This document shows, one piece after another, positions 10,337-58,489 of a stretch of DNA of 64,000 nt. The notes under the pieces are model-generated. The model did not search any database, was not told where the DNA came from, and saw nothing but the letters and a program-made list of their open reading frames with translations. This DNA comes from Tahibacter harae. GTDB lineage: Bacteria > Pseudomonadota > Gammaproteobacteria > Xanthomonadales > Rhodanobacteraceae. The number at the start of each line of letters is the position of its first letter. The stretch's first letter is position 1. Made by a program: the position numbers and the translations under genes. The stretch covers positions 124,001 through 188,000 of the forward strand of contig NZ_JANFQO010000011.1 of the NCBI RefSeq assembly GCF_024437735.1, in the 5' to 3' direction.

Positions 10337-12934
10337 CTAGAACTGCAACCCCCACCGATCCAGAGTCCCCGTATCCCCCGGCCCATTGTCATTCACCCGC
10401 AACTTCCACACCCCGTTCGCCGCCACCGCCGACGCATTCACGGTGAAGGTCTGGATGATGTTGTCGGTGCCGCCGCCGCTGCGGTTCCACAGGTTAAACA
10501 CGGTGCCGTTGGGCGCGACCAGATCCACCTTCAGGTCGCCCTGGTAGGTGTGGTTGATCGTCACGCTGGCCTTGAGCGCGGCCGGCGCATTGCCGGCGAT
10601 GCCGCTGACCGTGATCGGGCTCTCGACCGTGCTGTTGTCGCCGATGGCGAAATCCGTGCCGTTCTCGAAGCTGGTGCCGCCGCTGCCGCCGGTGGTGTAG
10701 CTGCCCAGCAGGCTCAGGCCGGAATAGGCGGAATAGCCGCGCAGCAGGATGTGATAGGTACCGGCCTGGGGCGTGGCGAAGGTGCAGGTTTCCGCATTGC
10801 CGCTCTTGTAGGGACGGCAGTCGTAGGTGGATGTGGTCGGCGCCGAACCGAAGCGCACATACAGGTCGGCATCGCCGCTGCCGCCGGAAGTGGAAATGTT
10901 CAGATTGCTCGCGCCGGCGGGCACGACGATGGTGTAGGCCAGGCTGGAATTCGCCGCACCGGAAAGCCCGCTCGCCGGCACGCCGTTCTGCAGCACGTTG
11001 CCGCCACCGCTGCTGACCGTGACCTGGCGCGTGGTGCTGTGGCTGGCGCCGCCGTTGTCGGTGACGGTCAGGGCCACGGTATAGGTGCCGGCCGCCGCAT
11101 AGCTGTGGCTGGGGTTGGCCGCGGTCGATGTCGCGCCGTCGCCGAAATCCCAGCTGCGCGCGGCGATGCTGCCGTCGCTGTCGGTGGAGGTATCGGTGAA
11201 GCTGGCGCCGAGCCCGTTCGCCGCGACGCTGAAGCTCGCCACCGGCGGCTGGTTGCCGCCGCCGTCGGTCACGGTAAAGCGCACGGCATTGGGCGTGCCG
11301 GGCTTGCCGGCGGCGTCGGTGCCCTGCACGAACACCGTGTGCACGCCCGGCGCCAGGCTGCTGGTGTTGATGGTCACCCGCACGCTTTCGGCACTGGCAT
11401 TGAAGCTGCCGTCCACCGCGCTCATGGCCAGCGGCGCGGCGCCGGCCTGCCAGGGCGCGGCATCGACATAGGCCGCGGCCGAGGCGATGGCCTGCACGGT
11501 TTCGCTGCCGTTGCGCGTGCTGAAGCGGCTGTCGTCGACACTGGCGGTAACGGTGACACTGCCGCCGGCGGCGACGCTGGCCGGGCTGACGCTGATGCTG
11601 GTGGTATCCGGCCCGGCCGGCAGCTTGTACGGCGCCTGGAGGTTGCGTGCGGCATAGCGCAGCGCGGCCAGGTTCTGCGGCAGGGTGGTGTTCTGGAAGG
11701 TGGTGCAGCTCTCGAAGAAGGCCACGCCCAGTTCTATGGTGAAGGCCGGCACGCCCAGCGAACCGTACATGTTGTCGTCGGTGGCGCCGTCGGTGGCGTA
11801 AAGCTCGTCGGACTGCTGCGGGTAGTAGCCGTTGAAATACGCCAGGCGCCGGCCGAAGGTGCGCAGCGCGGTGCCGTTGGGCGCGGCGGTCGCCGTATCG
11901 CCCCAGGGCCACAGCACCAGCTGGGCGTAGCTGTGGATGTCCATGAAGACACCCTTGTAGTCCTCCGGCGCGGCGGCGCTGACGGCGTCGGCGCGGCGGT
12001 CGGGAAACACGCCGCCGCTGTAGCTGCCGTTGCTGCCCAGGGTGCCGGCGACGTAATTGATGATGGCCTGGGTCTCGGGTTCGGATGCACGCACCGGACC
12101 GCGGTAGGTTTCATTGCAGGGATCGCCGCTGGAGCCGCCCGGCGCGCTGTTCCAGTGGAACGGGAAATTGCGGTTCAGATCGGTGCCGTAGCTGCTGCTG
12201 CCGCAGCTGCCGTTGGTGTTGTTGGTGTTCTTGCGCCAGGACAGGCCGGCCTCGGCCTTCTTGCGTCCGTCCGGATTGGACTGCAGCACCAGATGGAACC
12301 TGAAATGGTCCATCAGCCAGGTCGCCTCGGCATCGCTGCCGTAGCCGTTGACCAGCCATTCGGCGAAGCGCGTCATGGTTTCCGCCGGGGTGTACTCGCG
12401 CGCGTGCAGGCCGCTGAGCACGACCATGTTGGCCTTGTCCGCAATCGTGGCATCGGTGCCCTTGTTGCCCAGGCGCAGCACTTTCAGGGTGTAGCCGTTG
12501 GCGGCGTTGCGCGTCTTTTCCCAGCTCGGACCTATGTCGATGACTTCGGCCAAGTTGGGTTTCTGCGCGGCGAGCTGGCTCATCGTGGTCTGGGTCTCTT
12601 CCACGGTGCGGTAGCAGGCGTAGCCCGGAATGCTCTTGATGCCGCCGCCGGCGTGGCGGTCGCGCTCCCAGTCGTGCAGGCGGTTCGAGGCGGCCTGGTC
12701 TATCTCGATCTCGTAGCCGCCGGCGCGCAGCGCGGCGATGGTCGCCGCGTCGGCTTCCAGCTTCACGCTGCGGTTTTCGCGATCCACGATCAGGTGCTGG
12801 AACTGCGAGGCCAGGGCCTGCAACTGTTCCGGTTTTTCATAGCGCGCGGTGACGAACCAGACTTCTTCCGCCTGCGCGGGCGCGCTGGCGGCGCCGGCGA
12901 TGACCAGCGGCAATACGGCCAGTTTGGACAGCAT
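10337..12934 (-). CDS. Secreted M14 zinc carboxypeptidase with PKD, PPC and P domains
   Basis: An 865-residue exported protein with a signal peptide (1-22, ending APAQA); GGAGA precedes the ATG. The M14 domain (about 100-430) shows the zinc motif HARE (177-180), the substrate-binding TDLNRNFPFHW, the third ligand H334 in MDIHSYAQ and the catalytic Glu in FTIELG (about 401). A linker domain is followed by a PKD domain (about 560-645, with WDFGDG), a PPC domain (about 650-750) and a P/Homo-B domain (about 755-865) ending at RWGLQF. It should release C-terminal amino acids from peptides outside the cell. Its tail is a diverged version of the cassette shared with the next two genes and with the protease at 52753. 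Confidence 0.93.
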   Translation of the reverse strand: MLSKLAVLPLVIAGAASAPAQAEEVWFVTARYEKPEQLQALASQFQHLIVDRENRSVKLEADAATIAALRAGGYEIEIDQAASNRLHDWERDRHAGGGIKSIPGYACYRTVEETQTTMSQLAAQKPNLAEVIDIGPSWEKTRNAANGYTLKVLRLGNKGTDATIADKANMVVLSGLHAREYTPAETMTRFAEWLVNGYGSDAEATWLMDHFRFHLVLQSNPDGRKKAEAGLSWRKNTNNTNGSCGSSSYGTDLNRNFPFHWNSAPGGSSGDPCNETYRGPVRASEPETQAIINYVAGTLGSNGSYSGGVFPDRRADAVSAAAPEDYKGVFMDIHSYAQLVLWPWGDTATAAPNGTALRTFGRRLAYFNGYYPQQSDELYATDGATDDNMYGSLGVPAFTIELGVAFFESCTTFQNTTLPQNLAALRYAARNLQAPYKLPAGPDTTSISVSPASVAAGGSVTVTASVDDSRFSTRNGSETVQAIASAAAYVDAAPWQAGAAPLAMSAVDGSFNASAESVRVTINTSSLAPGVHTVFVQGTDAAGKPGTPNAVRFTVTDGGGNQPPVASFSVAANGLGASFTDTSTDSDGSIAARSWDFGDGATSTAANPSHSYAAAGTYTVALTVTDNGGASHSTTRQVTVSSGGGNVLQNGVPASGLSGAANSSLAYTIVVPAGASNLNISTSGGSGDADLYVRFGSAPTTSTYDCRPYKSGNAETCTFATPQAGTYHILLRGYSAYSGLSLLGSYTTGGSGGTSFENGTDFAIGDNSTVESPITVSGIAGNAPAALKASVTINHTYQGDLKVDLVAPNGTVFNLWNRSGGGTDNIIQTFTVNASAVAANGVWKLRVNDNGPGDTGTLDRWGLQF

Positions 12935-13341: not shown

Positions 13342-16300
13342 TCAGAACGTGATGCTCCAGCTGTCGATCTTGCCGGTGTCGCCCGGACCGTTGTCGTTGA
13401 CGCGCAGCTTCCACACGCCGTTGAGCGGTTCGCTGGACAGGTTCAGGCTCACCGTCGTGTTGAGATTGTCGGTGCCGCCGCCACTGCGGTTGTGGATGTT
13501 GTAGAGCGTGCCGTCGGGCGCGACCAGGTCCACCTTCAGGTCGCCCTGGTAGGTATGCACGATGGCGACGGTGACCGAGGCATTGCCGGGCGCATTGCCG
13601 CTGCGGCCGGAGACCGTGATCGGGCTGTCCACGGTGGCGTTGTCGCTGATGGTGTAGTCGGTGGTGTTGGTATAGGTCTGCGTACCACCGCCGCCGGTGG
13701 TGTAGCTGCCGGTGATGGACAGGCCGGAATACGCGGAATAGCCCAGCACCATCACGTGGTAGGTACCCGCCTGCGCCGTCGCGATGGTGCAGGTCTCGGC
13801 GTTGGTGGAACCCTGCGAGCGGCAGTCATAGCTGGCCGTGGTCGGCGCGGAACCGAACTTCACATAGAGGTCCGCATCGCCCGTGCCGCCCGTGGTGACG
13901 AACTTCAGGCCGCTGGCGCCGGCCGGCACGGCCATCGTGTAGAAGGTCTGCGAATTCGCCGCACCGGCCTGGCCGGTCAGGGCCACGCCGTTCTGCAGCA
14001 CGTTGCCGCCCGGCGGGGCGGTGACGGTGACAGAGCTGGTCTTGGTGTTGGTCGCGCCGCCGTTGTCGGTGACGGTCAGGCTGACGCTGTAGGTGCCGGC
14101 TGCGGCATAGGTGCGGCTGGGATTGGTCGCGGTGGACGTGCCGCCGTCGCCGAAGTTCCAGCTGCGCGAAGCGATGCTGCCGTCGGAATCGCTGGAGCTG
14201 TCGGTGAAGTTGGCGGTAAGCCCGTTGGTGACGACGCCGAAATTCGCCACGGGCGGTGCATTCGTGCCGCCGCTGACGGTGACGGAGCTGGTCCTGGTAT
14301 TGGTCGCGCCGCCGTTGTCGGTCACCGTCAGCGTAACGGTATACGTGCCGGCCGCCGCATAGGTCCTGCTCGGATTGGTCGCGGTCGAGGTGCCACCGTC
14401 GCCGAAATTCCAGCTGCGCGCGGCGATGCTGCCGTCGGAGTCGGTCGAGGTATCGGTGAAATTCGCCGTTAGCCCGCTGGTGGCCACACTGAAATTCGCC
14501 ACGGGTGCTGCGTTGCCGCCGCTGTTGAGCGTGACGTTCCAGGCGCCGCGGCCGTAGGTGCCGGCGCTGAGCACGTGCGGCGTGTCGTCGATTTCCAGGT
14601 CGGTGACGACCAGGCCCAGCGGCAGCCCGGTGGAGAAGGCGACGAAGTTGTCGCCGCCGTCGGCGCTCTCGTATACGCCTACGTCCGTGCCCACGAAGAT
14701 GCGGTTGGTATTGAGCGGATCGATGGCCACAGCATTGGCCGGCACATTGGGCAAGCCGGCGCCGACCGCGCTCCAGCTGGTGCCGCCGCTGGTCGAGCGA
14801 TACAGGCGCGCGGCGCCGAAGCCGGCGCGGGTGACGAACACGCGCTGGGCGTTGAGCGGATCCATCGCCACGTCGGAAACCACGCCGCCCGGATAATTGC
14901 CGGTGACATCGGTGAAGCTCACGCTGGGCACGGCTGCATCCGGCGTGGCGTAGATGCGCCCGCCCGAGGTGCCGACATAGGTCGGCACCAGCACGCCCAT
15001 GCTCACCGGCGTAATCACCGACACGGCCGAACCCAGGCTGCCCGAGATCGCCGTCCAGGACAGCGGATTGGCCGACGTGGTGGCGCGATAGACCACGTTG
15101 GACGCGGTGAACAGGCGATTGCCCGCCACCGCCATCGGCGTCACCCAGGGGAAGCTGGACGAGGACGTGATGCCCGTCGTCGGCAACTTGGTGAAGCTGT
15201 TGGCGCCGCCGCCGGAAGTCGAGCGGTAGATGCTGGGGAAGCCGCCCGAGGGATAGCTGGTCTGGAACACGATGGACGGATTGGTCGGGTCTATCGCATT
15301 CATGAAGCCGTCGCCGGAGACGAAGGTCAGGTCCCACACGGCGCTGGTGCTGCGGCGGGACGAGGAATTGTCCTGCGCGCCGCCGAACACGATGTCGGGG
15401 TTCGTCGGATGCACGCTGATGTCGTAGAACTGGGTGACATTGAGGTTGGAATTCATGTTCACCCAGCTGCTGCCGCCGTTGTCCGTGCGCCAGAGGCCGC
15501 CGTCGGTGCCCAGCCAGAAGCGGTCCGGATTGCTGCGCGAATAGCGCACGACGTGGGTGTCCTGATGTACCGCCTGGCTGCTGCCCCAGGTGGAGTGCAG
15601 GATGGTGAAGCTGCTGCCGCCGTTGGTGGAACGCGCGGTGCGGATGCTGCCGACGAGGATGGTGTCGGGCTGGGTCGGGTGCACGTCGATGGCGAGGTTG
15701 TAGCTGCACTGGCCTTCGCAGGCGGTATTGCTGCGCAGGGACCAGCTGGCGCCGCCGTCGGCGCTGCGGTACAGGCTGCCGCTCTGCAGCGCGTACAGCA
15801 CATTGGTATTGCTTGGGGCCATGGCCAGGCGCAGGCGCGAACCGGATACGCTGAGGCCGGAATTCATCGCCGTCCAGCTGGCGCCGCCGTCGCTGGATTT
15901 GTATACGCCGCTGCCGGCCACGCCGGCATAAACGGTGGCCGTGCCCGGCACGAAGATCAGGTCTTCAACATTGCCGTTGAGGGTCTTGCTCCAGCTGCCG
16001 CCGCGGTCGGCCGAGCGGTACAGGCCCGAACCCGACAACGTGCCGCTGCTGCTGCAGCTGCCGGCGCCGCCGGCCAGTACCACGTTGGCATTGGTCGGTT
16101 GTACTGCCACCGCGTTGACGATGGACAGCGGCATGGCCGTCGCGCCGCTGCCATTGCGCGCCTGCCAGCTGTTGCCGCCATCGCTGCTGAGGTAGACGCC
16201 CTGGCCGAAATAGCCGGCGCAGCCGCCGCCGTTGCGGTCGCCGGTGCCTGCCCAGACATTCGCCGGCGCGGCCGGCTCCACGAACAGCGCACCGGTGGGC

Positions 16301-16773
16301 AAGGTGCCGACCTGGTCGAACAGCGCGGTCCATGAACTGCCGCCGTTCGTGGTCTTCCATACGCCGCCGGCGGCGGCGGCAAAGTAGACGGTATTTTCAT
16401 CGGTGGGATGCGGCACTACGGCATTGGTGCGGCCGGCGACGCGGCCCATGCTCCAGTTGCCCATGTTCATCGAGGACGGGCCCAGCGGCGCCCAGGTTTC
16501 GCCGGCGGCGCGCTGCAGCGGGGCGAGGCGCTCGACGTCGGCTTTCAGTTCGGCGGCGGCCTTGCGCCGTTCGGCATCGGCATTGACGGCCTGGTCCAGT
16601 CCGCGCGAGCGGATGAACCATTGCTGGCGCTGTTCTATCTGCCAGCTTTCTTCGCGCGGCTTGCTGCCGCGGTCGCCGCCCGGCGCATCGGACTGTGCGC
16701 TGGCGGTGGTGGTGAGGGAAACGGCGGCCACGAACGAAAGCAGGTGGCACCGCAGGGCAGGGCGTACGTGCAT
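13342..16773 (-). CDS. Secreted BNR-repeat protein with two PKD, PPC and P domains
   Basis: A 1143-residue exported protein with a signal peptide ending TTTASA; GGAGAACC precedes the ATG. Residues 90-745 are BNR/sortilin-type beta-propeller repeats with about nine Asp-box-like motifs (NGGSSW, DGGNSW, RGGSWS, DGGASW, SGGTSW). Two PKD domains follow (about 748-835 and 836-920, each with NFGDGGTSTATNPSRTYA), then a PPC domain (about 925-1025) and a P domain ending SWSITF. Such propellers occur in sialidases, xyloglucanases and non-enzymatic binding proteins. I see no proof of glycosidase activity. The last 300 codons are near-identical in DNA to the following gene's end. Confidence 0.88.
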   Translation of the reverse strand: MHVRPALRCHLLSFVAAVSLTTTASAQSDAPGGDRGSKPREESWQIEQRQQWFIRSRGLDQAVNADAERRKAAAELKADVERLAPLQRAAGETWAPLGPSSMNMGNWSMGRVAGRTNAVVPHPTDENTVYFAAAAGGVWKTTNGGSSWTALFDQVGTLPTGALFVEPAAPANVWAGTGDRNGGGCAGYFGQGVYLSSDGGNSWQARNGSGATAMPLSIVNAVAVQPTNANVVLAGGAGSCSSSGTLSGSGLYRSADRGGSWSKTLNGNVEDLIFVPGTATVYAGVAGSGVYKSSDGGASWTAMNSGLSVSGSRLRLAMAPSNTNVLYALQSGSLYRSADGGASWSLRSNTACEGQCSYNLAIDVHPTQPDTILVGSIRTARSTNGGSSFTILHSTWGSSQAVHQDTHVVRYSRSNPDRFWLGTDGGLWRTDNGGSSWVNMNSNLNVTQFYDISVHPTNPDIVFGGAQDNSSSRRSTSAVWDLTFVSGDGFMNAIDPTNPSIVFQTSYPSGGFPSIYRSTSGGGANSFTKLPTTGITSSSSFPWVTPMAVAGNRLFTASNVVYRATTSANPLSWTAISGSLGSAVSVITPVSMGVLVPTYVGTSGGRIYATPDAAVPSVSFTDVTGNYPGGVVSDVAMDPLNAQRVFVTRAGFGAARLYRSTSGGTSWSAVGAGLPNVPANAVAIDPLNTNRIFVGTDVGVYESADGGDNFVAFSTGLPLGLVVTDLEIDDTPHVLSAGTYGRGAWNVTLNSGGNAAPVANFSVATSGLTANFTDTSTDSDGSIAARSWNFGDGGTSTATNPSRTYAAAGTYTVTLTVTDNGGATNTRTSSVTVSGGTNAPPVANFGVVTNGLTANFTDSSSDSDGSIASRSWNFGDGGTSTATNPSRTYAAAGTYSVSLTVTDNGGATNTKTSSVTVTAPPGGNVLQNGVALTGQAGAANSQTFYTMAVPAGASGLKFVTTGGTGDADLYVKFGSAPTTASYDCRSQGSTNAETCTIATAQAGTYHVMVLGYSAYSGLSITGSYTTGGGGTQTYTNTTDYTISDNATVDSPITVSGRSGNAPGNASVTVAIVHTYQGDLKVDLVAPDGTLYNIHNRSGGGTDNLNTTVSLNLSSEPLNGVWKLRVNDNGPGDTGKIDSWSITF

Positions 16774-24830: not shown

Positions 24831-26180
24831 TCAGGGGTTCTGGAAGCCGTAGGCGAAGATGAGGTCGCCGACAAGTTCAAACGCGCCGATGTCGATCAGT
24901 CCATCGCCGCCGCGCGCCTGCGCAGTGCCGGGTGCGACCAGGCCGCGCCGGGGCTGGAAGGCCGGCGGGAACAGTGGGCCGGGAAAGGCAAAGGCGGGGT
25001 TGCCGGCCGGCGCATTGTTGCCGCTGTCGCGCAGCGGGCTGGCGGCGGTGGGGCGCAGATCGTAGGCGGCCACGTTGGCGAAGCCGGGACTGGTGCCGCT
25101 CAGCGTGCCGCTCCACTCGCCGGCGGCGGGCACGAAGGTGGAACCGGCCTCGATCCAGTTGTTGCTGCCGCGGATCTGGCGGCCGTCGGTCCAGACCAGC
25201 TCGCCGTCCACCGCGCGGATGATGCGCGCGGTGCCGCCGGCGGTGACGTCGATCACGTTGTTGTGCATCTCCACCGACTGCATTTCCTGGAAGATGCGGA
25301 ACACCGTCGCGTCCACGCCGGAGCTGAGCAGGATGGTGTTGTTGACGAAGCGCGCGCGGCCCTTGCTCACGCCGGAGCCGTCGCCGCCGATGCGGATGAC
25401 CGCGCCGAACGCCGGATTGGTGTGGACGATGACATTGCCGACCACGTCCTGGTCTTCGCGGACCAGGTCGCGGGTCCAGCCGGCCTGCTGGGTTTCCTCG
25501 TCCGGGCCTATCAGTTCCAGTTCGTGATAGACCGCGCCCTGGAACCAGTTGTAGTGGATCTCCGCGCGCTGGTGGCGGCATTTGAGCAGGTTGCCGCCGG
25601 TGCCGTCGTGCACGTAGTTGTGGCGCATGCGGAACACCGCATTCGGCCAGGCGACTTCGTCGCTCTGGATATACAGCGCATGCTGCGAAGTACCGGCGCC
25701 GGAGCCGTAGATCTCCGAGTATTCCAGGGTGAAGGAGCCGGAGAACTGGTCCGTGCTCAGGATGCCGTGGGCGGCGCAGGTGTGGATCACGCTGTCGCGC
25801 ACGGTGACCTCGTGGGCGCCCTGCAGGATGCAGCGTGCGCTGCCGCCGCTGACCTCGAAGCCTTCGAACACCACGTAGTCGGACTGGCGGAATTCCACCG
25901 TGTTGCCGCCGCCGTTGATGCGCGGGCGCAGGCCGTTGACGCGGATGCCGCGGATCACCACCGGATTGCCGGCGCTGCCGCCGTCGGCGGCGGGCACGAC
26001 CACGCCGCCGGCGTAGGTGACATTGCCGTCGACCTCGACCACGTCGCCGCCTTGCAGGTCCACCGCGGCGAACAGCTGATTGAGGCTGGTATGGGGCCGC
26101 GTCGGGCCGACCTGGTAGGTAGCGGCACCGGCGCAGCCGGCGTACAGCAGGGGCAGCAACAGCAGTCGGCGGGCGCGCAT
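24831..26180 (-). CDS. Exported right-handed beta-helix protein with IFxxGFQ tail
   Basis: A 449-residue protein starting at the ATG at 26180 (GGAG upstream). The signal peptide (RRLLLLPLLYAGCAGA) could alternatively be read as a lipoprotein box (LYAG-C). The middle (about 80-330) is a right-handed parallel beta-helix with repeated short strands and Asn ladders (NGGGNTVEFR, HNYVHDGTGG, NNVIDV), similar to pectate-lyase-fold proteins. Near the end is DIGAFE, the mark of the choice-of-anchor Q region, followed by GDLIFAYGFQNP at the very C-terminus. It may bind or cleave a polysaccharide; no catalytic residues are certain. Confidence 0.82.
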   Translation of the reverse strand: MRARRLLLLPLLYAGCAGAATYQVGPTRPHTSLNQLFAAVDLQGGDVVEVDGNVTYAGGVVVPAADGGSAGNPVVIRGIRVNGLRPRINGGGNTVEFRQSDYVVFEGFEVSGGSARCILQGAHEVTVRDSVIHTCAAHGILSTDQFSGSFTLEYSEIYGSGAGTSQHALYIQSDEVAWPNAVFRMRHNYVHDGTGGNLLKCRHQRAEIHYNWFQGAVYHELELIGPDEETQQAGWTRDLVREDQDVVGNVIVHTNPAFGAVIRIGGDGSGVSKGRARFVNNTILLSSGVDATVFRIFQEMQSVEMHNNVIDVTAGGTARIIRAVDGELVWTDGRQIRGSNNWIEAGSTFVPAAGEWSGTLSGTSPGFANVAAYDLRPTAASPLRDSGNNAPAGNPAFAFPGPLFPPAFQPRRGLVAPGTAQARGGDGLIDIGAFELVGDLIFAYGFQNP

Positions 26181-26442
26181 GCGGACACTCCAGGCAATCG
26201 GCGGCGCGCAGCCTGCGGTGCCGCGGCCGCGCAATCTGTGAAATGCGCCGGCGGGCGCAAAGCGAACGGGGTCAGTGGCGGAAAGCGCCGGACCGGCGGC
26301 GGCTGGCGAATCCTGCACCGGCTGCGCGCCGGAGCATGGCCTAAGCTACGCGGATGCGCGCGGCAAGCCGCCGCGCCGGCGCCGGCGGATCCACCGCGCG
26401 GACGCTGCCGATCAATGCCGCAAGCCGGCGGGAGCATTGCCG

Positions 26443-27727: not shown

Positions 27728-29182
27728 CTACCGAAACTGCTCCGCAGGCAGCCGCGCGCAACCGAACTCGCCCGGATCGTGCAGTTCGAAGTCGCCGTAG
27801 AAGATCGTGTCGCCGCGGTACTCATAGGCGCCGATATCGGTGCGGCCGTAGCCGCGGGCGAAGCCCGCGCCGCGCTGGTCGGTGGCGAGGCCGGCGTCGT
27901 TCTCGCCGCGCTCGCAGGCCGGGCTGCCCAGCGTCAGCGCCATCGTCGGCGTGGGGCCGCCGTTGTCGCGCAGCGGCTCCAGCTGCGGATCGAGCTGCCA
28001 GCGGTTCTCGAAATCCTCGCCATTGACGGTGCTGACGTCGGGCAGGGCCTGGACCAGGCTGCGGCGCGCCGAAACGGTGGCCGGCGTGAGATCGGGGTCG
28101 ATCTCGCGCACCAGATCGCGCGGCGTTGCGGCCGGGCCCTGGGTATTGCCGGCGACGATGCTGCTGACGAGGTCGAGCCGGCTGGCATCGCCGCCGACGA
28201 ACACACCGCCGCCGCTGGTAAAGGCGCCGCTCGCCGGCCCCGTGCTGTTGCCGACCACGGTGCTGTTGCGCAGGATCAGGCGTCCGTGGCCGAGGAAGAC
28301 GGCGCCGCCGCTGGCGGAATCTTCCGGCGCGCGATTGGCGTTGAACGTAGTGTTTTCGATCACCGAGATAGCGCCTTCCAGCGGCGTCGTCAGATGCAGC
28401 GCGCCGCCGTCGGAAGTCGTCGCCTGGTTGTCGGCGAACGTGCTGCCGGCAATGTGCAGCGAAGTCGCGGACGCCAGCAGGCCGCCGCCGCTGTACTGGG
28501 CGCGGTTGCCGTAGAGGTAGCTGTCGCCCAGTTCCGCACTGGCGGTCACGCCGTGGACGGAGATCGCGCCGCCGAATTCGGCCTCGTTGCCGCTGAAGCG
28601 GCTGCGCCGCGCCACCAGGCGCGCTTCGCTCACGGCGACGGCGCCGCCGAGCTTGTACGAGATATTGCTGTCGAACTGGCTGGAGACGAGGCTGAGTTCG
28701 CAGTCGTCGATGAAGATGGCGCCGCCCCAGCCGCCTGCCCGGTTCTGACTGAAGCGGCTGTCCTCGACGCGCAGGCGTGCATAGGACGCATGCACGGCGC
28801 CGCCGTCGCCGTCGAAATAGCCGTCGCGCAGATGCAGGCGTGCCAAGCGCACATCCACCCGGCAGGCCTCGTTGCCGTCGCCCTCGATCAGGAGCAGGCG
28901 CCCCAGGCCGTTGCCGGCCAGTACCGCCGGCTCTGCGCCGGTGCCGAGGATTTCCACCGAATCGGTGACCGGCACGGGGCCGGAACTCAGCACGATGGGG
29001 CCGGCGCTGTGGATCAGGATGCGGTCGGCGCCGGGATTGGCGTTCGCCAGCGCCAGCGCGCTGCGCAGGCTGCCGGAACCGGAGTCGCCGGTCTGGTTCA
29101 CCTCGTAGTCGGCGGCAAACGCGGAAGAGGCCAATGCGGCCCCGCCCAGCCCAAGCCGGGCCAGGAAGCGCAGAAGAGTCAT
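27728..29182 (-). CDS. Exported beta-helix, choice-of-anchor Q protein
   Basis: A 484-residue protein starting at the ATG at 29182 (AAGGA about 10 nt upstream); the frame stays open further upstream. The signal peptide ends SSAFA. Residues 30-380 are a parallel beta-helix with polymorphic outer-membrane-protein-like repeats (GGAVHAS, GGAIFID, GGAISVHG, GGGLLAS, GGAVFLG). The C-terminal part has TDQRGAGFARGYGRTDIGAYE, the choice-of-anchor Q signature, then GDTIFYGDFE and 19 further residues. It is probably a secreted or surface protein; no enzymatic site is visible. Confidence 0.82.
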   Translation of the reverse strand: MTLLRFLARLGLGGAALASSAFAADYEVNQTGDSGSGSLRSALALANANPGADRILIHSAGPIVLSSGPVPVTDSVEILGTGAEPAVLAGNGLGRLLLIEGDGNEACRVDVRLARLHLRDGYFDGDGGAVHASYARLRVEDSRFSQNRAGGWGGAIFIDDCELSLVSSQFDSNISYKLGGAVAVSEARLVARRSRFSGNEAEFGGAISVHGVTASAELGDSYLYGNRAQYSGGGLLASATSLHIAGSTFADNQATTSDGGALHLTTPLEGAISVIENTTFNANRAPEDSASGGAVFLGHGRLILRNSTVVGNSTGPASGAFTSGGGVFVGGDASRLDLVSSIVAGNTQGPAATPRDLVREIDPDLTPATVSARRSLVQALPDVSTVNGEDFENRWQLDPQLEPLRDNGGPTPTMALTLGSPACERGENDAGLATDQRGAGFARGYGRTDIGAYEYRGDTIFYGDFELHDPGEFGCARLPAEQFR

Positions 29183-29518
29183 GGAGACAATTTCCTTGTT
29201 CGATGAAGATGCGCGGCTCACGCCGCGCGGTTAACTTCAGCGAATCCCTCGCGGGCTGGCTTCAAGGGCGTCTCACGTTTTCCTTAAATTTCTCAACTGA
29301 CTGATCCGGCGGCTGTTTTCGAACAGGCCGGAAGCCGCGGCGCGGACGGGCGCGGCGTGAACACGGGCCGCGGCCGCGCCGCTGCGCAGCCGCGGACTCC
29401 GGCGGGCGGGAGCGCTGGGTGTCGCATCCGGCCGCGATGCGTGGCGGCTGCCGGCGCTGTCGCTGGCCGGTCCTTGGCGGCGCCGCCGCGGCGGCCGGCG
29501 CGAAAGACGCGCGGCCGC
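29183..29518. other. 336-bp gap, no gene
   Basis: It holds the leader of the beta-helix gene (short AT-rich stretch at 29275-29300) and a hairpin at 29306-29331 whose inner stem CTGTT/AACAG closes a TTCG tetraloop, without a T-run. The right half is very GC-rich with no recognisable feature. Confidence 0.5.
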
Positions 29519-33656: not shown

Positions 33657-35828
33657 ATGAAACCGAACCGCGCCGCCGTCCCGTCTTCGTTCGCGGCCTG
33701 GCTGCTGCTGCTGGCATTGCTGCTCAGCGGCGCAGCCCAGGCCGTCGTGCTGAACATTCCTTCCACCTATCCGCGCAACTGGTACGGCAACGCCGCGCGC
33801 CTGGCCCAGGCGCGGGCGCATCACCAGGCCACGCCGTTCACGCCGTCCGGCGACGGCTCGGTGCTGAACTTCGGCCGCGCGCTGCGCGGCCTGCTCGCCA
33901 ACAATGCCGGGGACTGCGACCAGGCCGTCGCCTTCCTCGACGCCTGGCGCGCGCCCGCCGGCATAGGCGGCTTCCGCGACGCGACCCGGCAGCAGGGCGA
34001 GAACCTGCTGCTGATCTACGACTGGTGCCATCACCGCCTCAGCCCGGCCCAGATCAGCAGCCTGGTCACGCTGTGGAACGGCTACATGGACCGGGACAAC
34101 GGCGACGATTTCGCCAACCAGGGGTCGGAGGCAAACAACTACTTCTGGGGCCGCGTGCGCAATAACCTGCTCTGGGGCATTGCCAGCTACGGCGAAAATC
34201 CGCGTGCGCAGGAATTCATCGACAACGCGCTGCAGACCCGCCTGCAGAACTGGTTTCCGCAGTGGTACGCCGATTTCGGCCGCGGCGGCGTGTTTCCCGA
34301 AGGCGCGGACTACGGCTCGGTGACGCTGTCCTATCCCATCGTGCCGTTCGCCAGCGCGGCGGACTTCGGCTTCGATCCCTACGCCACCACGCCGTATTTC
34401 CGCGAGGCGCTGTACGCGCTGATCTATGGCAGCACGCCGGGACCGACCAGCATCAGCGGCGCCTTCTCCGGCGGCAACGTGCTGTTCCCGTTCAATGACG
34501 ATGCGACGTTCTTCGAGGGTTCGCCGATCAATGTGCGCAGCTATTACGGCGACGTCGCGCGCTTCTTCGGCCAGCGCGATGCGGCCAGCGGCAATGCGCG
34601 GCATATGCGCGCCTGGCTGGCGGCGACCGGTGCCGGGCGCAGCTGGATGTTCGACGCACTCGGCGGCAGCGGCAATGCCGCCGACCTGAACGGGCTGCCG
34701 CTGGACTACTTCGCCCCCGGCGCGGCGGTGTTCTATGCGCGCAGCGGCCACGACGCCAATGCCAGCGCCCTGCATATCCAGCTGGGCACGCCCGGGGGCG
34801 TGCAGCATCGCCACCGCGACGCCGGCAATTTCCAGTTCTGGCGCAAGGGGCGCTGGATCACGCGCGAAAGCACGGGCTATTCCAAGCCCCTGGTGGGCTT
34901 CGGCGGCAGCGGTACGGTCGATACCGAACACCACGTCGCGCACAACGGGCTGCTATTCCAGGGGCGCACCACCGGCCGCTGGATCGGTTCCGGCCCGCGC
35001 GTGATTCCGCCGGGCCAGCCGCGCCAGGACAATCCGGACGGACTGCCCGAAGTCGTGCGCCTGCAGCACCACGCCGATTTCGGCTACGTCGCCGCCGATT
35101 ATTCCAAGGCGTATCGCAATACCGACGGTCCGCGCGTGGACTGGCCCTATGCGGACAAGGCCGTGCGCGAATTCCTGTTCCTGCGCCGCTTCAATGCCCT
35201 GATCATCCTCGACCGCCTGCGCGGCAGCAGCGATTCCCAGCTGCCGTTCTATTTCACGCCGAACTGGATCAACAGCCCCGAAGGCGGCAGCGGCGCCGAT
35301 CCGCTGGCCGTGCATGTGAATGCCGATGCCGTGGTGCGCACGTTCCTGATGCACTTTGAGACTGCGCCCGCGCTGAGTGGCAACCGCGCCAGCGCGAATG
35401 TCGGCAACCAGGTGGCGGAGCTGATCACGCTGTTGCCGGCGGCGCCGAATTTCCGCGTGGTCGCCGAGGACGTGCCGGGCAATGAACTGTACGGCCAGCA
35501 CCGGCTGGAACTGGATTCCAGCGGCAGTGCCGAGAGTTATTTCCTCAACGTGGTACACGGCCGCGACAGCGGCGCGGCAGCACTGGGCGCGAGCCTGGCC
35601 GACAACGGTTCCAGCTGGACGCTGACCTTGTCCGATCCAGTGCAGGGCACGGCGAGCATCGTGCTGGCCAAGGGCATGATTTCCCAGGGCGGCAGCGTCG
35701 CGCTGGGCGGCGCCGCGGCGGTGCCGTTGCGGGGCGATGTGCAGGGGATCAGCGTCGGCGCGGATGGGCCGGTGTGGCAGGGAGACGTGTTGCCGGATGG
35801 GATTTTTGCGGATGGGTTCGAGGTGTGA
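33657..35828 (+). CDS. Exported heparinase II/III-like polysaccharide lyase with IFxxGFE tail
   Basis: A 723-residue protein; the ATG at 33657 is chosen because a signal peptide (LLLLALLLSGAAQA) follows. Residues about 60-330 are alpha-helical with alpha/alpha-toroid features (NQGSEANNYFWGRVRNNLLWG, FPEGADYGSV). The second half is beta-rich and contains VQHRHRDAGNFQFWRKGRW, matching the heparinase II/III C-terminal domain with its conserved His/Asp. The protein ends in GIFADGFEV. It probably cleaves an acidic polysaccharide by beta-elimination outside the cell; the exact substrate is unknown. Confidence 0.75.
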   Translation: MKPNRAAVPSSFAAWLLLLALLLSGAAQAVVLNIPSTYPRNWYGNAARLAQARAHHQATPFTPSGDGSVLNFGRALRGLLANNAGDCDQAVAFLDAWRAPAGIGGFRDATRQQGENLLLIYDWCHHRLSPAQISSLVTLWNGYMDRDNGDDFANQGSEANNYFWGRVRNNLLWGIASYGENPRAQEFIDNALQTRLQNWFPQWYADFGRGGVFPEGADYGSVTLSYPIVPFASAADFGFDPYATTPYFREALYALIYGSTPGPTSISGAFSGGNVLFPFNDDATFFEGSPINVRSYYGDVARFFGQRDAASGNARHMRAWLAATGAGRSWMFDALGGSGNAADLNGLPLDYFAPGAAVFYARSGHDANASALHIQLGTPGGVQHRHRDAGNFQFWRKGRWITRESTGYSKPLVGFGGSGTVDTEHHVAHNGLLFQGRTTGRWIGSGPRVIPPGQPRQDNPDGLPEVVRLQHHADFGYVAADYSKAYRNTDGPRVDWPYADKAVREFLFLRRFNALIILDRLRGSSDSQLPFYFTPNWINSPEGGSGADPLAVHVNADAVVRTFLMHFETAPALSGNRASANVGNQVAELITLLPAAPNFRVVAEDVPGNELYGQHRLELDSSGSAESYFLNVVHGRDSGAAALGASLADNGSSWTLTLSDPVQGTASIVLAKGMISQGGSVALGGAAAVPLRGDVQGISVGADGPVWQGDVLPDGIFADGFEV

Positions 35829-38643: not shown

Positions 38644-40599
38644 ATGCGCAAGATTCACGGGTTGCCGGCGGCCCTGCTGCTGGCCATGACGGCGCCGGCG
38701 GCCTTCGCCGCGGGCGAGGATTTCTGGAGCGACGCCGCGGCGCAGCGGCCGGCGGCGGATGCGCCGCCGGCCCGCGAATTCCGCGCGCTGACGCTGGATG
38801 CAGGCGCGCTGCAGCGTTTCCTCGACGGTGCCGCGCGCCAGGGCGAGGCGCTGGCGCTGCCGCGTCCGCAGGGCGGTTTCAACGAGTTCGTGCTCAGTGA
38901 TTCCGGCGTGATGCCGCCGCAGCTTGCGGCGAAGTATCCGCAGATCCGCAGCTATGTCGGCGTCGCCGCCGACGGCACCCAGGCGCGCATCGACGTGTCG
39001 CCGCTGGGCTTGCAGGCCATGGTGTTCGCCGGCGACGGCGTATGGATGGTGCAGCCCCAGGGCCGCGACCGCGCCGAGTACATGAGCTTTGCCCGCGGCC
39101 AGTTGCAGGCGGGCAAGGATTTCCGCTGCGGCGTGCACGGCCGTCCGGCACCGGGCCGCGTCGATGCCGCGCTGCGCGCGGTGCCCGCGCCCATGACGGT
39201 GACGGGCGCGGTCAAGCGCAACTACGTCGCTGCCGTCGCGGCCAACAGCGCCTATGTCGCCGCGATCAGCCCGTCGGGCGGCGCCACCGTGGCGACCGGC
39301 CTGGCCGGCGTGGTCGCGACCATGAACCGCGTCAACCAGGTCTATGAGCAGGATTTCTCCATCCACATGACCCTGTACGCGAACAACGACCAGCTGATCT
39401 ATCCCTCGGCCGGCACCGATCCGTACCCGAACGACGACACTGCCGTCGACATGAACACCAGTCACCTGAACACCACCATCGGCGTGGGCAGCTACGACAT
39501 AGGCCATGTTCTGACGACCGGCTCGGGCGGCGTCGCCGGCCTGGGCGTGGTCTGCCAGGACAGCTGGAAGGGCGACGGCACCACGGGCTCGGGCAATCCC
39601 ACCGGCGATGCGTTCTGGATCGACTACGTCGCGCACGAGATGGGTCACCAGTTCGGCGGCGACCATACGTTCAATTCCACCACCAGTTTCTGCAGCGGCA
39701 ACCGCAACGGCGCTACCGCGTTCGAGCCCGGCAGCGGTTCGACAGTGATGGCCTATGCGGGCATCTGCGGTGCGGCCGATCTGCAGTCGAATTCCGATCC
39801 GTACTTCACCGCGAGCAGCCTGAGCGAGATCCACACCTATACCGCCGGCGACGGGGCGGGCTGCGCCGGCAATACCGCGAATCCCAATGCTGCGCCGGTG
39901 ATTGCGCCGCTGTCGAACTTCATCATCCCGGCGCGTACGCCGTTCGTGCTGACCGGCTCGGCCACCACCGCCAGCGGCGGCACGCTGAGCTATGCCTGGG
40001 AGCAGAACGACACCGGCGCGACCAACAACAATCTGGCCAACGACCCGGGCACCGGTCCCATCATCCGTTCGCTCACTCCGGCCGCGACCGGCGTGCGCGT
40101 GATCCCGCGCCTGTCCAACCTGCTCGCCGGCACCACGCTCAAGGGCGAGATCCTGCCCACCACCAACCGCACCCTGCATTTCCGCCTCACCGTGCGCGAC
40201 AACGTGCCCGGCGGCGGCACCAGCAGCAGCGCGGACATGAGCGTGCAGTCGGTGGCGACCGGCAGCGCGTTCAAGGTCAATGCCCCCAATACTGCGGTGA
40301 ACTGGGCCGGCCTGAGCAGCCAGAACGTGACCTGGGACGTGGCCGGCACCAATGCGGCGCCGATCTCCTGCAGCCAGGTCGGCATAGACCTCTCCAGCGA
40401 CGGCGGCCTCACCTTCCCGCAGAACCTGGGCACCTTCCCCAACACCGGCAGCGCCAGCATCACCGTGCCCAACACCGCGACGACGCATGCGCGTCTGCGC
40501 GTTTCCTGCATCGGCAATATCTTCTTCAACGTCTCGGCCCCGGATTTCACGATCACGCCGGGCAGCGACGCGATCTTCGACGACAGCTTCGAGCTGTAG
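38644..40599 (+). CDS. Secreted reprolysin-like metzincin metalloprotease with IFxxSFE tail
   Basis: A 651-residue protein. The same frame is open about 2.1 kb upstream by chance; I chose the ATG at 38644 because a signal peptide (LLAMTAPAAFA) follows. A propeptide-like region (about 25-190) precedes the M12B-type catalytic domain with the zinc motif HEMGHQFGGDH (331-341) and the Met-turn VMAYAG about 45 residues later. A C-terminal beta-rich region (about 420-640) ends in AIFDDSFEL. It should be an extracellular endopeptidase. Related proteins are annotated as reprolysin family. Confidence 0.9.
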   Translation: MRKIHGLPAALLLAMTAPAAFAAGEDFWSDAAAQRPAADAPPAREFRALTLDAGALQRFLDGAARQGEALALPRPQGGFNEFVLSDSGVMPPQLAAKYPQIRSYVGVAADGTQARIDVSPLGLQAMVFAGDGVWMVQPQGRDRAEYMSFARGQLQAGKDFRCGVHGRPAPGRVDAALRAVPAPMTVTGAVKRNYVAAVAANSAYVAAISPSGGATVATGLAGVVATMNRVNQVYEQDFSIHMTLYANNDQLIYPSAGTDPYPNDDTAVDMNTSHLNTTIGVGSYDIGHVLTTGSGGVAGLGVVCQDSWKGDGTTGSGNPTGDAFWIDYVAHEMGHQFGGDHTFNSTTSFCSGNRNGATAFEPGSGSTVMAYAGICGAADLQSNSDPYFTASSLSEIHTYTAGDGAGCAGNTANPNAAPVIAPLSNFIIPARTPFVLTGSATTASGGTLSYAWEQNDTGATNNNLANDPGTGPIIRSLTPAATGVRVIPRLSNLLAGTTLKGEILPTTNRTLHFRLTVRDNVPGGGTSSSADMSVQSVATGSAFKVNAPNTAVNWAGLSSQNVTWDVAGTNAAPISCSQVGIDLSSDGGLTFPQNLGTFPNTGSASITVPNTATTHARLRVSCIGNIFFNVSAPDFTITPGSDAIFDDSFEL

Positions 40600-52752: not shown

Positions 52753-55170
<2,418 letters not shown>

Positions 55171-56224: not shown

Positions 56225-58489
56225 ATGTCTGACTGTCCTTTGCGATTGCCGCACCTGGCCCTGGCCGGCCTGCTGGCGCTGTTGCCGGCACTGGCGGCCC
56301 GCGCCGGCGATGCGCGCGGCATCGCGCTGCCGTTGCAGCCAGTCACGGCCCTGGCCAACGGCGTGAACCATGCCTGCGCCATCGCCGAAGGCGGCAAGGT
56401 GTTCTGCTGGGGCTACAACCTCTACGGCCAGCTCGGCAGCGGCGACGACACCAGTACGGTGGATCCGACCCTGGTGCGCGGCCTGCCCGGTGCGGCGGTG
56501 TCGCTGGCCGCCGGCATGTACCACAGCTGCGCGGTGGCCGGCGGCAAGGTCTGGTGCTGGGGCAACAACGACTACGGCCAGCTCGGCAACAACAACCCAG
56601 ACGGCAACCTCGTCCCGGTCGAGGTGCAGGGTCTGGGCGGCACCGCCACGGCGGTGACCGCAGGCTACTATCACACCTGTGCAGTTGTGGATAACGGGAT
56701 TAAGTGCTGGGGCGCCAATGCTTACGGCTCGCTCGGCAACGGCGACGACAACGACAGCTATCTGCCCGTCAGCGCGGCCGGCCTGAGCGGCCCCTTCAGC
56801 CAGATCGCCGCCGGCCTGCTGCACACCTGCGCGGTCAACGCCGAAGGCCTGTGGTGCTGGGGCTACAACTTCTCCGGCCAGATCGGCAATTCCACCCGGC
56901 TGAACCAGTACGAACCGGTCGCGGTGGATGGCCTGCCGGCGGCGGTGGTGCGTATCGCGCCGGGCAGCGAGCACAGTTGCGCCGCACTGGCCAACGGCAG
57001 CGTGTACTGCTGGGGCGCCAACGGTTCCGGCCAGCTCGGCACCGGCGGTTCGGACCCGGCCACCCATCCGGTTGCCGTGACCGGCCTGGCCGGCGCAGCC
57101 AGCGCCGTCGCCACCGGCGCCCTGCACAGCTGCGCCCGGGTCGGCGACCGCGTGCAGTGCTGGGGCGACAACACCTACAACCAGATCGGCAGCCATCCGG
57201 ACGGCAGCGCGGTGCCGGTCAACCTCAGCACGCTCGGCGGCGTGGCCGACGTCAGCGCGCGCACCTACTACGGCTGCGCGCGGCTCGACGATGCCAGCCT
57301 GGCCTGCTGGGGCTACAACTTGCGCGGCCAGCTCGGCGACGCCTCGGCCCTGCTGCGCACGGCGCCGGTGCACACCTTGCCGCCCGGCAGCGGCGTGAGC
57401 GCGGTCGCCGCGGGTTCGGCACACAGTTGCGCAGCGGTGCCGGAAGGGCTCAAGTGCTGGGGCTACAACGCCTCGGGCGCGCTGGGCCTGGGCGAGTTCA
57501 GCGTGTTCGATTCCATTCCCAACCTGGTGCGCGGCTTCACCCATGCGGTGAGTTCGGTATCCGGCGGTGCCGACCATACCTGCGCGGTCTACGACGGCGG
57601 CGTCTGGTGCTGGGGCGACAACGAATTCGGCCAGCTCGGCATCGGCGAAGACGAACCCGCCCAGGAGATCCCGCGGCTGTTGCCCGGACTGGCCGACAGC
57701 GTCAGCCAGGTCAGCGCCGGCGAGAACTTCGCCTGCGCGCTGCGCCTGGGGGCGGTCTGGTGCTGGGGCGCCGGCGCCAACGGCCAGCTCGGCAACGGCG
57801 CGACGGAAGACAGCTATACGCCCGTGCAGGTCAGCGGCCTGGACGGCGGCGTCAGCGCCATCGCCGCCGGCGTCAGCCACGCCTGCGCCGTGCAGTTCGG
57901 CGCCGCCAAATGCTGGGGCATCAACACCGACGGCCAGCTCGGCCTGGGCACGAACGACGGCCTGCGCAGCACGCCGCAGCAGGTCAGCGGGCTGGCCAGC
58001 GGCGTCAGCCTGCTCACTGGCGGCTATACCCACACCTGCGCCGTGGTCGACGGCGGCGCGCGCTGCTGGGGCTACGACGGCTACGGCCAGCTCGGCAACG
58101 GCATCTACGACGATGCCAGCTATGTGCCCCAGGCCGTGGTAGGCCTGGACAGCGGCGTGCAGAACCTGGTCGCCGGCGACGACGTGACCTGCGCCGTGCA
58201 TGACGACTCCGCCCTGTGCTGGGGCGCCGACTACGAAGGCGACCTGGGCAACGGCGGCCCGGTGCGCACCCGGCGCCTGGTGCCGACGCCGGTGCTGGGC
58301 ATGAGCAATATCGCCGCCGGGCCGCTGGCCATACGCGGTACCCATGTCTGTGCGGCGACCCGCGCCGGCGGCCTGCATTGCTGGGGCGACGATCTGCTCG
58401 GCCCGCTGGGCGTGGGCCGCGCCGTGCTCGCGTCCAAGCCGCGGCCGGTGCTGCGGCAGGATCAGCTGTTCGCCAACGGGCTGGATTGA
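56225..58489 (+). CDS. Exported RCC1-repeat beta-propeller protein, 14 repeats
   Basis: A 754-residue protein with a signal peptide (LAGLLALLPALAARA). After it come 14 RCC1-type repeats, each centred on CWGxNxxGQLG (for example FCWGYNLYGQLG, KCWGINTDGQLG, HCWGDDLLGPLG), enough for two seven-bladed propellers. Nearly every repeat pairs the CWG cysteine with one about ten residues earlier (HSCAV, HTCAV, HACAI), so disulfides in each blade are likely. The C-terminus QLFANGLD resembles a weak form of the IFxxGFE tail. It probably binds a surface or extracellular partner; no enzyme motif is seen. Confidence 0.9.
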   Translation: MSDCPLRLPHLALAGLLALLPALAARAGDARGIALPLQPVTALANGVNHACAIAEGGKVFCWGYNLYGQLGSGDDTSTVDPTLVRGLPGAAVSLAAGMYHSCAVAGGKVWCWGNNDYGQLGNNNPDGNLVPVEVQGLGGTATAVTAGYYHTCAVVDNGIKCWGANAYGSLGNGDDNDSYLPVSAAGLSGPFSQIAAGLLHTCAVNAEGLWCWGYNFSGQIGNSTRLNQYEPVAVDGLPAAVVRIAPGSEHSCAALANGSVYCWGANGSGQLGTGGSDPATHPVAVTGLAGAASAVATGALHSCARVGDRVQCWGDNTYNQIGSHPDGSAVPVNLSTLGGVADVSARTYYGCARLDDASLACWGYNLRGQLGDASALLRTAPVHTLPPGSGVSAVAAGSAHSCAAVPEGLKCWGYNASGALGLGEFSVFDSIPNLVRGFTHAVSSVSGGADHTCAVYDGGVWCWGDNEFGQLGIGEDEPAQEIPRLLPGLADSVSQVSAGENFACALRLGAVWCWGAGANGQLGNGATEDSYTPVQVSGLDGGVSAIAAGVSHACAVQFGAAKCWGINTDGQLGLGTNDGLRSTPQQVSGLASGVSLLTGGYTHTCAVVDGGARCWGYDGYGQLGNGIYDDASYVPQAVVGLDSGVQNLVAGDDVTCAVHDDSALCWGADYEGDLGNGGPVRTRRLVPTPVLGMSNIAAGPLAIRGTHVCAATRAGGLHCWGDDLLGPLGVGRAVLASKPRPVLRQDQLFANGLD

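Follow-up and report, generated by a model that had tools for sequence, protein, structure and literature searches.

The C-terminal tail D-x-[ILV]-F-x-[DNS]-G-F-E (FxDRFE in Wenzhouxiangella), found on unrelated exported proteins of Tahibacter harae and its relatives, is probably a portable, non-transmembrane sorting signal for one lineage of the type II secretion system (T2SS), here called type A. Judging from the sequences, it is almost certain that the tail is a sorting signal and quite likely that it is tied to the type-A T2SS, while its reading by the PDZ domain of GspC is put forward tentatively. The number of tags in a genome follows the type-A system (gspC-gspD-gspE, with a PDZ domain in GspC) and not the co-resident Xps system, the GspC of which lacks this domain.

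The starting point was the window, a stretch of 64,000 nucleotides of the T. harae genome, in which an earlier note had listed five exported proteins of different folds with similar ends. All five tails are present as quoted there, except that 18 and not 19 residues follow the motif in the second beta-helix protein, and a signal peptide is found at the N-terminus of all five proteins (judged by eye). The features are as follows:

24831-26318, minus strand: tagged right-handed beta-helix protein with a signal peptide (Pfam Beta_helix match weak, below cut-off)
24840-24866, minus strand: tag DLIFAYGFQ, a variant with Q for E, near the C-terminal end of this beta-helix protein
27728-29221, minus strand: tagged beta-helix protein with a choice-of-anchor Q domain upstream of the tag (NF041518, 1.7e-19, residues 411-468)
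27785-27811, minus strand: tag DTIFYGDFE, a variant, then 18 residues (sequence reading)
33657-35828, plus strand: tagged heparinase-like lyase with a signal peptide (weak HepB match, 0.0058; no Pfam match)
35796-35822, plus strand: tag DGIFADGFE, with a stop after one more residue, V (sequence reading)
38644-40599, plus strand: tagged M12B (reprolysin-like) metallopeptidase with a signal peptide (PF13574, 3.9e-27)
40567-40593, plus strand: tag DAIFDDSFE, a variant, with a stop after one more residue, L (sequence reading)
56225-58489, plus strand: RCC1-repeat-like exported protein (label from the earlier note and by eye)
58460-58486, plus strand: weak tag-like end DQLFANGLD of the RCC1-repeat protein, counted as a possible variant only

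The tail of the first beta-helix protein reads GDLIFAYGFQNP up to the stop. The RCC1 tail, FANGLD, is weak because the F and the E of the motif are replaced. Only the lyase fits the strict pattern FxxGFE, so genome counts based on FxxGFE are undercounts. Three big exported frames of the window (10337-12934, 13342-16773, and 52753-55137, minus strand) share a similar C-terminal domain with GDTGxxDxWxxxF, P-domain-like by eye; they carry no tag and lie near tagged genes.

The tag is real and genome-wide, and the five window tails are a small sample of it. A whole-genome search, which the earlier note had proposed, returned 67 matches to TTYNNNNNNGGNTTYGAR, the DNA pattern for F-x-x-G-F-E, in the 5.99-Mb genome, as against 3 for the reversed control. 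The frames around all 67 matches were read, a frame met twice being listed once. In 43 of them the frame has at least 100 residues and stops 0-12 codons past the E (frames under 100 residues or with more than 12 residues past the E being left out); 5 of these tags end exactly at the E and 14 one residue later, and two of the 43 (L055 and L056) are doubtful short frames. Seven further matches have either an extra 36-156 residues after the motif (L009, L028, L038, and L048), an inter-domain position (L062), or a position after the signal peptide (L024 and L044); the remainder look like chance or antisense frames. The consensus of the 43 tags is D (30/43)-x-I/L/V/M (43/43)-F-x-D/N/S/A (39/43)-G-F-E, and the residues upstream are unconserved, with at most about 0.6 bit at each of positions -12 to -4. 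The codons are a synonymous mix, with 40 distinct 18-mers among the 43 tags, which argues for selection on the peptide rather than for a DNA repeat.

A few copies lie elsewhere in the protein. In L062, PDPIFRNGFE is a linker that joins two domains, one of them carbohydrate-binding-like (by eye), and L010 has a second copy, FAGGFE, just past its hydrophobic leader in addition to its C-terminal tag. The motif stands immediately behind the signal peptide in L024 and L044 of the window genome, in L128 of G275, and in L348 of G334, and the signal may thus also work at the mature N-terminus.

The tag goes with export, as the earlier note had supposed. A home-made signal-peptide rule was passed by 36 of the 40 full-length tagged frames after upstream sequence had been added (three further tagged frames, still truncated, lie outside the 40); of the four that failed, L049 has a hydrophobic leader that is obvious by eye, none was found in L050, and L055 and L056 are the doubtful frames mentioned above. 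A laxer version of this rule was passed by 37 of the 40 tagged frames; among untagged frames, not all of which need be genes, it was passed by 85 of 163. Pooling the fetched genomes gave 112 tagged proteins, which fall into 51 groups without a BLAST link at 1e-6, 35 of them singletons; this set, like the survey of neighbouring genes, covers those of the named loci in which the motif is preceded by I, L, V, M, or F. These groups, the unconserved upstream residues, and a disordered tail in one AlphaFold2 model (see below) answer the objection that the motif might be the last strand of one domain. The cargo includes an M12B peptidase, CSLREA proteins, proteins with fn3 or P-domains, beta-helix proteins that carry choice-of-anchor Q, and an ExeM/NucH nuclease, and some tagged proteins score partly on the models of rhombosortase- or myxosortase-dependent M36 peptidases. 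The tagged families are thus of the kinds that carry sorting tails elsewhere. Three untagged families recur next to tagged genes (by eye): an ABC-F-like ATPase, a coiled-coil exported family, and a kinase-like family. They were considered as the machine and rejected, none being an obvious anchor or secretion part.

The ExeM/NucH family, as far as the ends of its members were read, shows that the tail is detachable. Seven copies from genomes without type A are untagged and end a few residues past the catalytic SDHDP motif and the last strand. Among ten short copies with readable ends from genomes with the type-A GspC, three carry the tag or a variant (in G000, which is the window genome, G275, and G287) and the other seven have none, so that not all homologs need it; the tag also closes two longer nuclease-like frames (G350 and G400). 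Different tails occur on this family within the same order, since the copy from G390 (L267) has a tail that we take to be IPTL-CTERM-like. In an AlphaFold2 model of the tagged nuclease of G275 (17 sequences, pTM 0.82), the last catalytic strand comprises residues 648-652, and the last five residues of the protein, which include NGFE, lie past it with a mean pLDDT of 45; the tail is thus predicted to be disordered in the one protein modelled.

Outside T. harae, the 20 matches fetched from G286 include 19 C-terminal ones, 10 of which have the E as their last residue; the same proportion holds in G275, where 15 end exactly at the E and one match stands directly behind a signal peptide. A scan of one genome per species, which gives the range only and at least the taxa named, returned matches that look genuine, among those listed, in Lysobacterales, Dokdonella, Tahibacter, Pseudofulvimonas, Chiayiivirga, and Marinicella, and in related or loosely labelled gammaproteobacterial bins; among the matches listed from other phyla, the frames are short and look like chance. 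In a class-wide sample, the window genome had 44 matches and 273 others had 0-14. Of 29 background loci, 8 proved to be one conserved enzyme motif (STRFADGFEYGLGAEIG), presumably that of ProA, and the others are mostly short or unrelated frames. Among 200 genomes of the order, the tag count per genome is bimodal. A broader pattern, D-x-[NTN]-F-x-[DNSG]-x-F-E, gave 6-49 hits in nine genomes of genus g244, taken to be Wenzhouxiangella, and 0 in controls. Eight of these loci were read: six are FxDRFE with 1-17 residues to the stop, one is FADDFE, and one is FENRFE and not C-terminal. From these readings, Wenzhouxiangella, seemingly an exception, would mostly use the variant tag FxDRFE.

The earlier note had proposed looking for the secretion or processing gene that co-occurs with the tag but had named no machinery. 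The co-occurrence points to a second T2SS. In 24 tag-rich and 24 tag-poor genomes, hand-picked from the 200-genome sample of the order, the secretin GspD (TIGR02517) was found over the cut-off in two copies, one shorter and one longer, in all 24 tag-rich genomes. Ten tag-poor genomes of family f1 have the long GspD only (two copies in one genome), and ten of family f2 have no short GspD over the cut-off (two of them, G294 and G318, have two long ones and one has none over the cut-off); four tag-poor genomes of family f180 have both forms. In a tree of 40 GspD sequences, the 20 shorter ones, from 18 tag-rich genomes and two of g244 (a genus of f180), form one clade (100/99), and 19 Xps-like ones stand apart. 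The second GspD of G294 belongs to another lineage, distantly sister to the type-A clade, which we take to be Xcs. The type-A part of the tree roughly follows the families, and this GspD appears ancestral in the order.

Five type-A loci were displayed, and what is known here of the pseudopilin, GspF, L, and M complement of the system comes from these five. All contain gspC and gspD, and four have gspE downstream; in that of G299, one gene lies between gspC and gspD, and gspE is followed by the only gspF among the five. In the window genome, the type-A cluster lies outside the window, at about 52.6-57.1 kb of G000:C15. In G275, the type-A GspC, GspD, and GspE score over the curated cut-offs (TIGR01713, 112 bits; TIGR02517, 566 bits; TIGR02533, 669 bits); by these three components, the machine paired with the tag is a T2SS. 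As a marker of such systems, T2SSK (PF03934) was rejected, this 63-position model having matches in E. coli and Bacillus too.

The type-A GspC (GspC-A) consists of a transmembrane helix, an HR domain, and a C-terminal PDZ domain, and it adjoins GspD, or lies one gene off, in 20 of 20 type-A loci; in 20 comparison loci, the sole GspC-A match, weak at 42 bits, is L330, a GspC that lacks a PDZ domain. It matches the TIGR01713, T2SSC, and PDZ models, whereas the two comparison GspC proteins scanned match XpsN and no PDZ model. Its predicted structure has the HR and PDZ domains, and the best hits in the PDB include the EpsC PDZ domain (2i4s, 3.4e-6), the PulC PDZ domain (5hj1), and GspC-HR; DegS with bound C-terminal peptides comes lower among the hits.

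A GspC-A profile built from 20 sequences was run on the same 200 genomes, which contain the 48 picked genomes from which the idea of type A arose. Presence was taken as an E-value of 1e-35 or better, a line set after the scores had been seen, with a gap between 133 and 83 bits; two genomes near 80 bits are both from f2. By this measure, GspC-A is present in 101 of the 200 genomes, and the median number of tag matches is 32 (1-144) with it and 3 (0-47) without it. Within families f1 and f2 taken together, there are 30-72 matches in the 6 genomes with GspC-A and 0-9 in the 63 without. Counted by genus, 29 of 35 genera with GspC-A are tag-rich (a median of at least 15) as against 1 of 34 without, although p-values (Fisher, about 2e-12 by genus) overstate this evidence because many of the genomes are related and the independent losses are few. 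With the broader pattern, at least three hits were found in 2 of 23 genomes without type A and in 24 of 27 that have it; G353, counted among the 24, is at the threshold, and the one locus read there looks false. In the tree of the Xps GspD, the tag-poor G324 lies among tag-rich genomes, apart from the other tag-poor clade of f1, and the tag-poor genomes of f2 are sister to the tag-rich G362. This suggests about three joint losses of the tag and type A, two of the supporting nodes being under 95.

There are exceptions to this rule. G334 and G368 (97-98% complete) have 20 and 23 matches and neither GspC-A nor the type-A GspD (GspD-A), and three genomes (G398, G427, and G447) have both proteins yet only 0-1 hits to the broader pattern; neither the tag nor a variant of it was found in the 302 kb of G398 searched, which held 43 signal-peptide-like frames. 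In five bins that are 77-94% complete (G319, G330, G389, G449, and G453), 17-47 matches were found and GspC-A was not detected; this absence may be due to assembly gaps, and G389 keeps a GspD-A-like fragment. Finally, three genomes of f2 (G294, G332, and G446) have a second T2SS, the GspD of which is more distant (in G332 and G446 there is a distant GspC match as well), yet only 0-3 FxxGFE-type matches, and a second T2SS as such therefore brings no tag.

How might the type-A system use the tail? A tagged protein would cross the inner membrane by Sec and then fold; in the periplasm, the type-A machine would capture its flexible tail, with the PDZ domain of GspC and/or the N-domains of GspD as the likeliest binding sites, and the protein would then leave through the type-A secretin, to end up in the medium or on the cell surface. 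Three reasons make the GspC PDZ domain the best candidate for the reader: it is present in the type-A GspC and missing from the Xps GspC proteins scanned; domains of this kind bind peptides in extended form; and, according to PMC12369372, one substrate, VesB, depends for its secretion on the PDZ domain of EpsC. A canonical PDZ reading depends on a free C-terminus, and what speaks against it is that only 5 of the 43 window-genome tags stop at the E itself, with a few copies lying inside the protein or at its N-terminus. Equally compatible are strand addition that needs no free carboxylate and a reading by the N-domains of GspD. Two positions of the PDZ domain are acidic in 13 of 13 GspC proteins of the RFE type, a label that rests on genus for several of them (Glu in all 13 at one position; Glu in 12 and Asp in 1 at the other); the comparison was between L308, L309, and L410-L420 and L305, L306, and L421-L428. 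G434, the tags of which are GFE, also has Glu at both positions, which breaks the pattern of G to R in the tag. On balance, we somewhat favour a nine-residue linear T2SS signal read by the GspC PDZ domain, with two dialects (GFE in most genomes and RFE in Wenzhouxiangella); its usual place of action would be the C-terminus, and in some proteins a domain border or the mature N-terminus.

Another explanation, which we consider unlikely, is surface retention: the proteins would be exported by any T2SS, the tail would then bind a partner in the outer membrane or at the surface, and type A would be needed indirectly. Several tagged proteins are indeed from families that have anchoring tails elsewhere (choice-of-anchor Q and J, CSLREA, and relatives of the rhombosortase- and myxosortase-dependent M36 peptidases), and the presumed IPTL-CTERM-like tail of the L267 nuclease homolog would be a case in the same order. 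Moreover, the proteolysis of Wenzhouxiangella AB-CW3, taken to be G329, is cell-bound with none in the supernatant, according to PMC7691419. However, no partner was found among the recurrent untagged neighbours of the tagged genes, and this explanation does not account for the tracking of one T2SS lineage rather than of Xps, which is present in most genomes.

It is about equally improbable that the two are linked by no mechanism at all, type A and the tag being ancestral traits lost together in lineages that give up a large secretome. This would agree with the seemingly ancestral type-A GspD and with the small number of joint losses that can be counted, and the rule is broken by five genomes, besides the incomplete bins. 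But the tags do not simply become fewer without type A: they drop to about zero, with 0-1 hits to the broader pattern in 16 of 16 tested genomes of f1 and f2 lacking it, and export persists in such genomes, where untagged nuclease homologs remain. Furthermore, g244, which has type A and few GFE matches, turned out to hold the variant tag.

Reading of the tail by a processing enzyme (sortase-like, an exosortase, a rhombosortase, or a periplasmic protease) is very unlikely, even though exosortase is somewhat commoner in tag-rich genomes and, as stated in PMC3237569, C-terminal tags elsewhere pair many-to-one with such enzymes. Of the 24 tag-rich genomes, 12 have an exosortase and none has a rhombosortase over the curated cut-off; the corresponding numbers for the 24 tag-poor genomes are 5 and 3. 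Both enzymes were rejected as the paired machinery, being missing from 12 and from all 24 of the tag-rich genomes, respectively. In addition, a TM-like stretch within the last 60 residues occurs in 1 of the 112 tagged proteins, and some motifs are internal or N-terminal. These results agree with the earlier note that the tag is not LPXTG, PEP-CTERM, or GlyGly-CTERM, and the layout of those signals (motif, TM helix, and basic end) is not that of the tag. For 38 tails scanned at E-values up to 1, no NCBIfam model covered the tail, the matches being weak or to upstream domains. A short exosortase-like frame does lie at G000:C78:179568-180002 (minus strand) of the window genome.

Hardly credible is the idea that the motif is no signal but a DNA repeat or the opening strand of a shared domain: three DUF11- or MBG-repeat proteins (L009, L028, and L048) do have 128-156 residues after the motif, but these extensions are at best weakly alike, the 43 C-terminal copies stop 0-12 residues past it, and the tail is disordered in the one AlphaFold2 model, a common domain, DNA repeat, or mobile palindrome being ruled out by the mixed codons and the unrelated folds. 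The sorting-signal reading of the earlier note (sorting, anchoring, or secretion) is supported at the level of sequence, having survived the tests for a common fold and for export.

Several known systems resemble the proposed type-A signal in part. The type IX secretion system has a C-terminal signal, likewise lacking a TM helix, by which folded exported proteins are taken across the outer membrane, but this signal, in Bacteroidota, is a folded domain of roughly 80 residues, whereas the tag has 9 residues and is predicted to be disordered in the one model made. DegS has a periplasmic PDZ domain that binds a short C-terminal peptide of outer-membrane proteins with aromatic residues, as the type-A PDZ domain may bind the tag; it is a stress sensor protease and not a secretion protein, and it reads a free C-terminus, whereas most tags of the window genome have residues past the E. 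GlyGly-CTERM, PEP-CTERM, and MYXO-CTERM are, like the tag, short C-terminal signals on many unrelated exported proteins with a sporadic distribution and many-to-one pairing, and they share cargo with it (M36-like proteins, the ExeM nuclease, and choice-of-anchor domains). Unlike them, the tag has no TM-like end (111 of 112), is often followed by 0-3 residues, and has some internal or N-terminal copies, and its pairing follows a T2SS lineage and not the membrane proteases rhombosortase, exosortase, or myxosortase. For GlyGly-CTERM, Haft and Varghese report (PMC3237569) no evidence that rhombosortase marks a T2SS subclass. The OutC protein of Dickeya and the EpsC protein of Vibrio are likewise GspC proteins with a PDZ domain, and this domain is a substrate-recruiting part of their T2SS (PMC12369372). 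The known PDZ-linked signals, according to PMC12369372 and PMC7949064, are located in Ig or Fn3 folds or in loops of single substrates; the tag differs in being a single linear tail that some 40 proteins of the window genome have in common.

C-terminal sorting tags are known, and we found none that lacks a membrane anchor and pairs with a T2SS lineage. Full-text searches (with the letters of the tag, linear or C-terminal T2SS signals, and these genera) returned no description of this tag among the papers listed, subscription papers and preprints lying outside their coverage. According to a 2025 paper (PMC11981180), the only apparent common feature of T2SS substrates is the Sec/Tat signal, and a conserved signal for transport across the outer membrane has not been identified; according to PMC7949064, the signals of T2SS substrates are composite loops, and the substrates seem to have no linear sequence in common. 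How the T2SS chooses its substrates is an open question, which a nine-residue tail shared by about 40 proteins of one genome and tracking one T2SS lineage would make directly testable. Such a tail would also make it possible to read the secretomes of many Lysobacterales from their genome sequences, and it would provide a short tag for engineered secretion.
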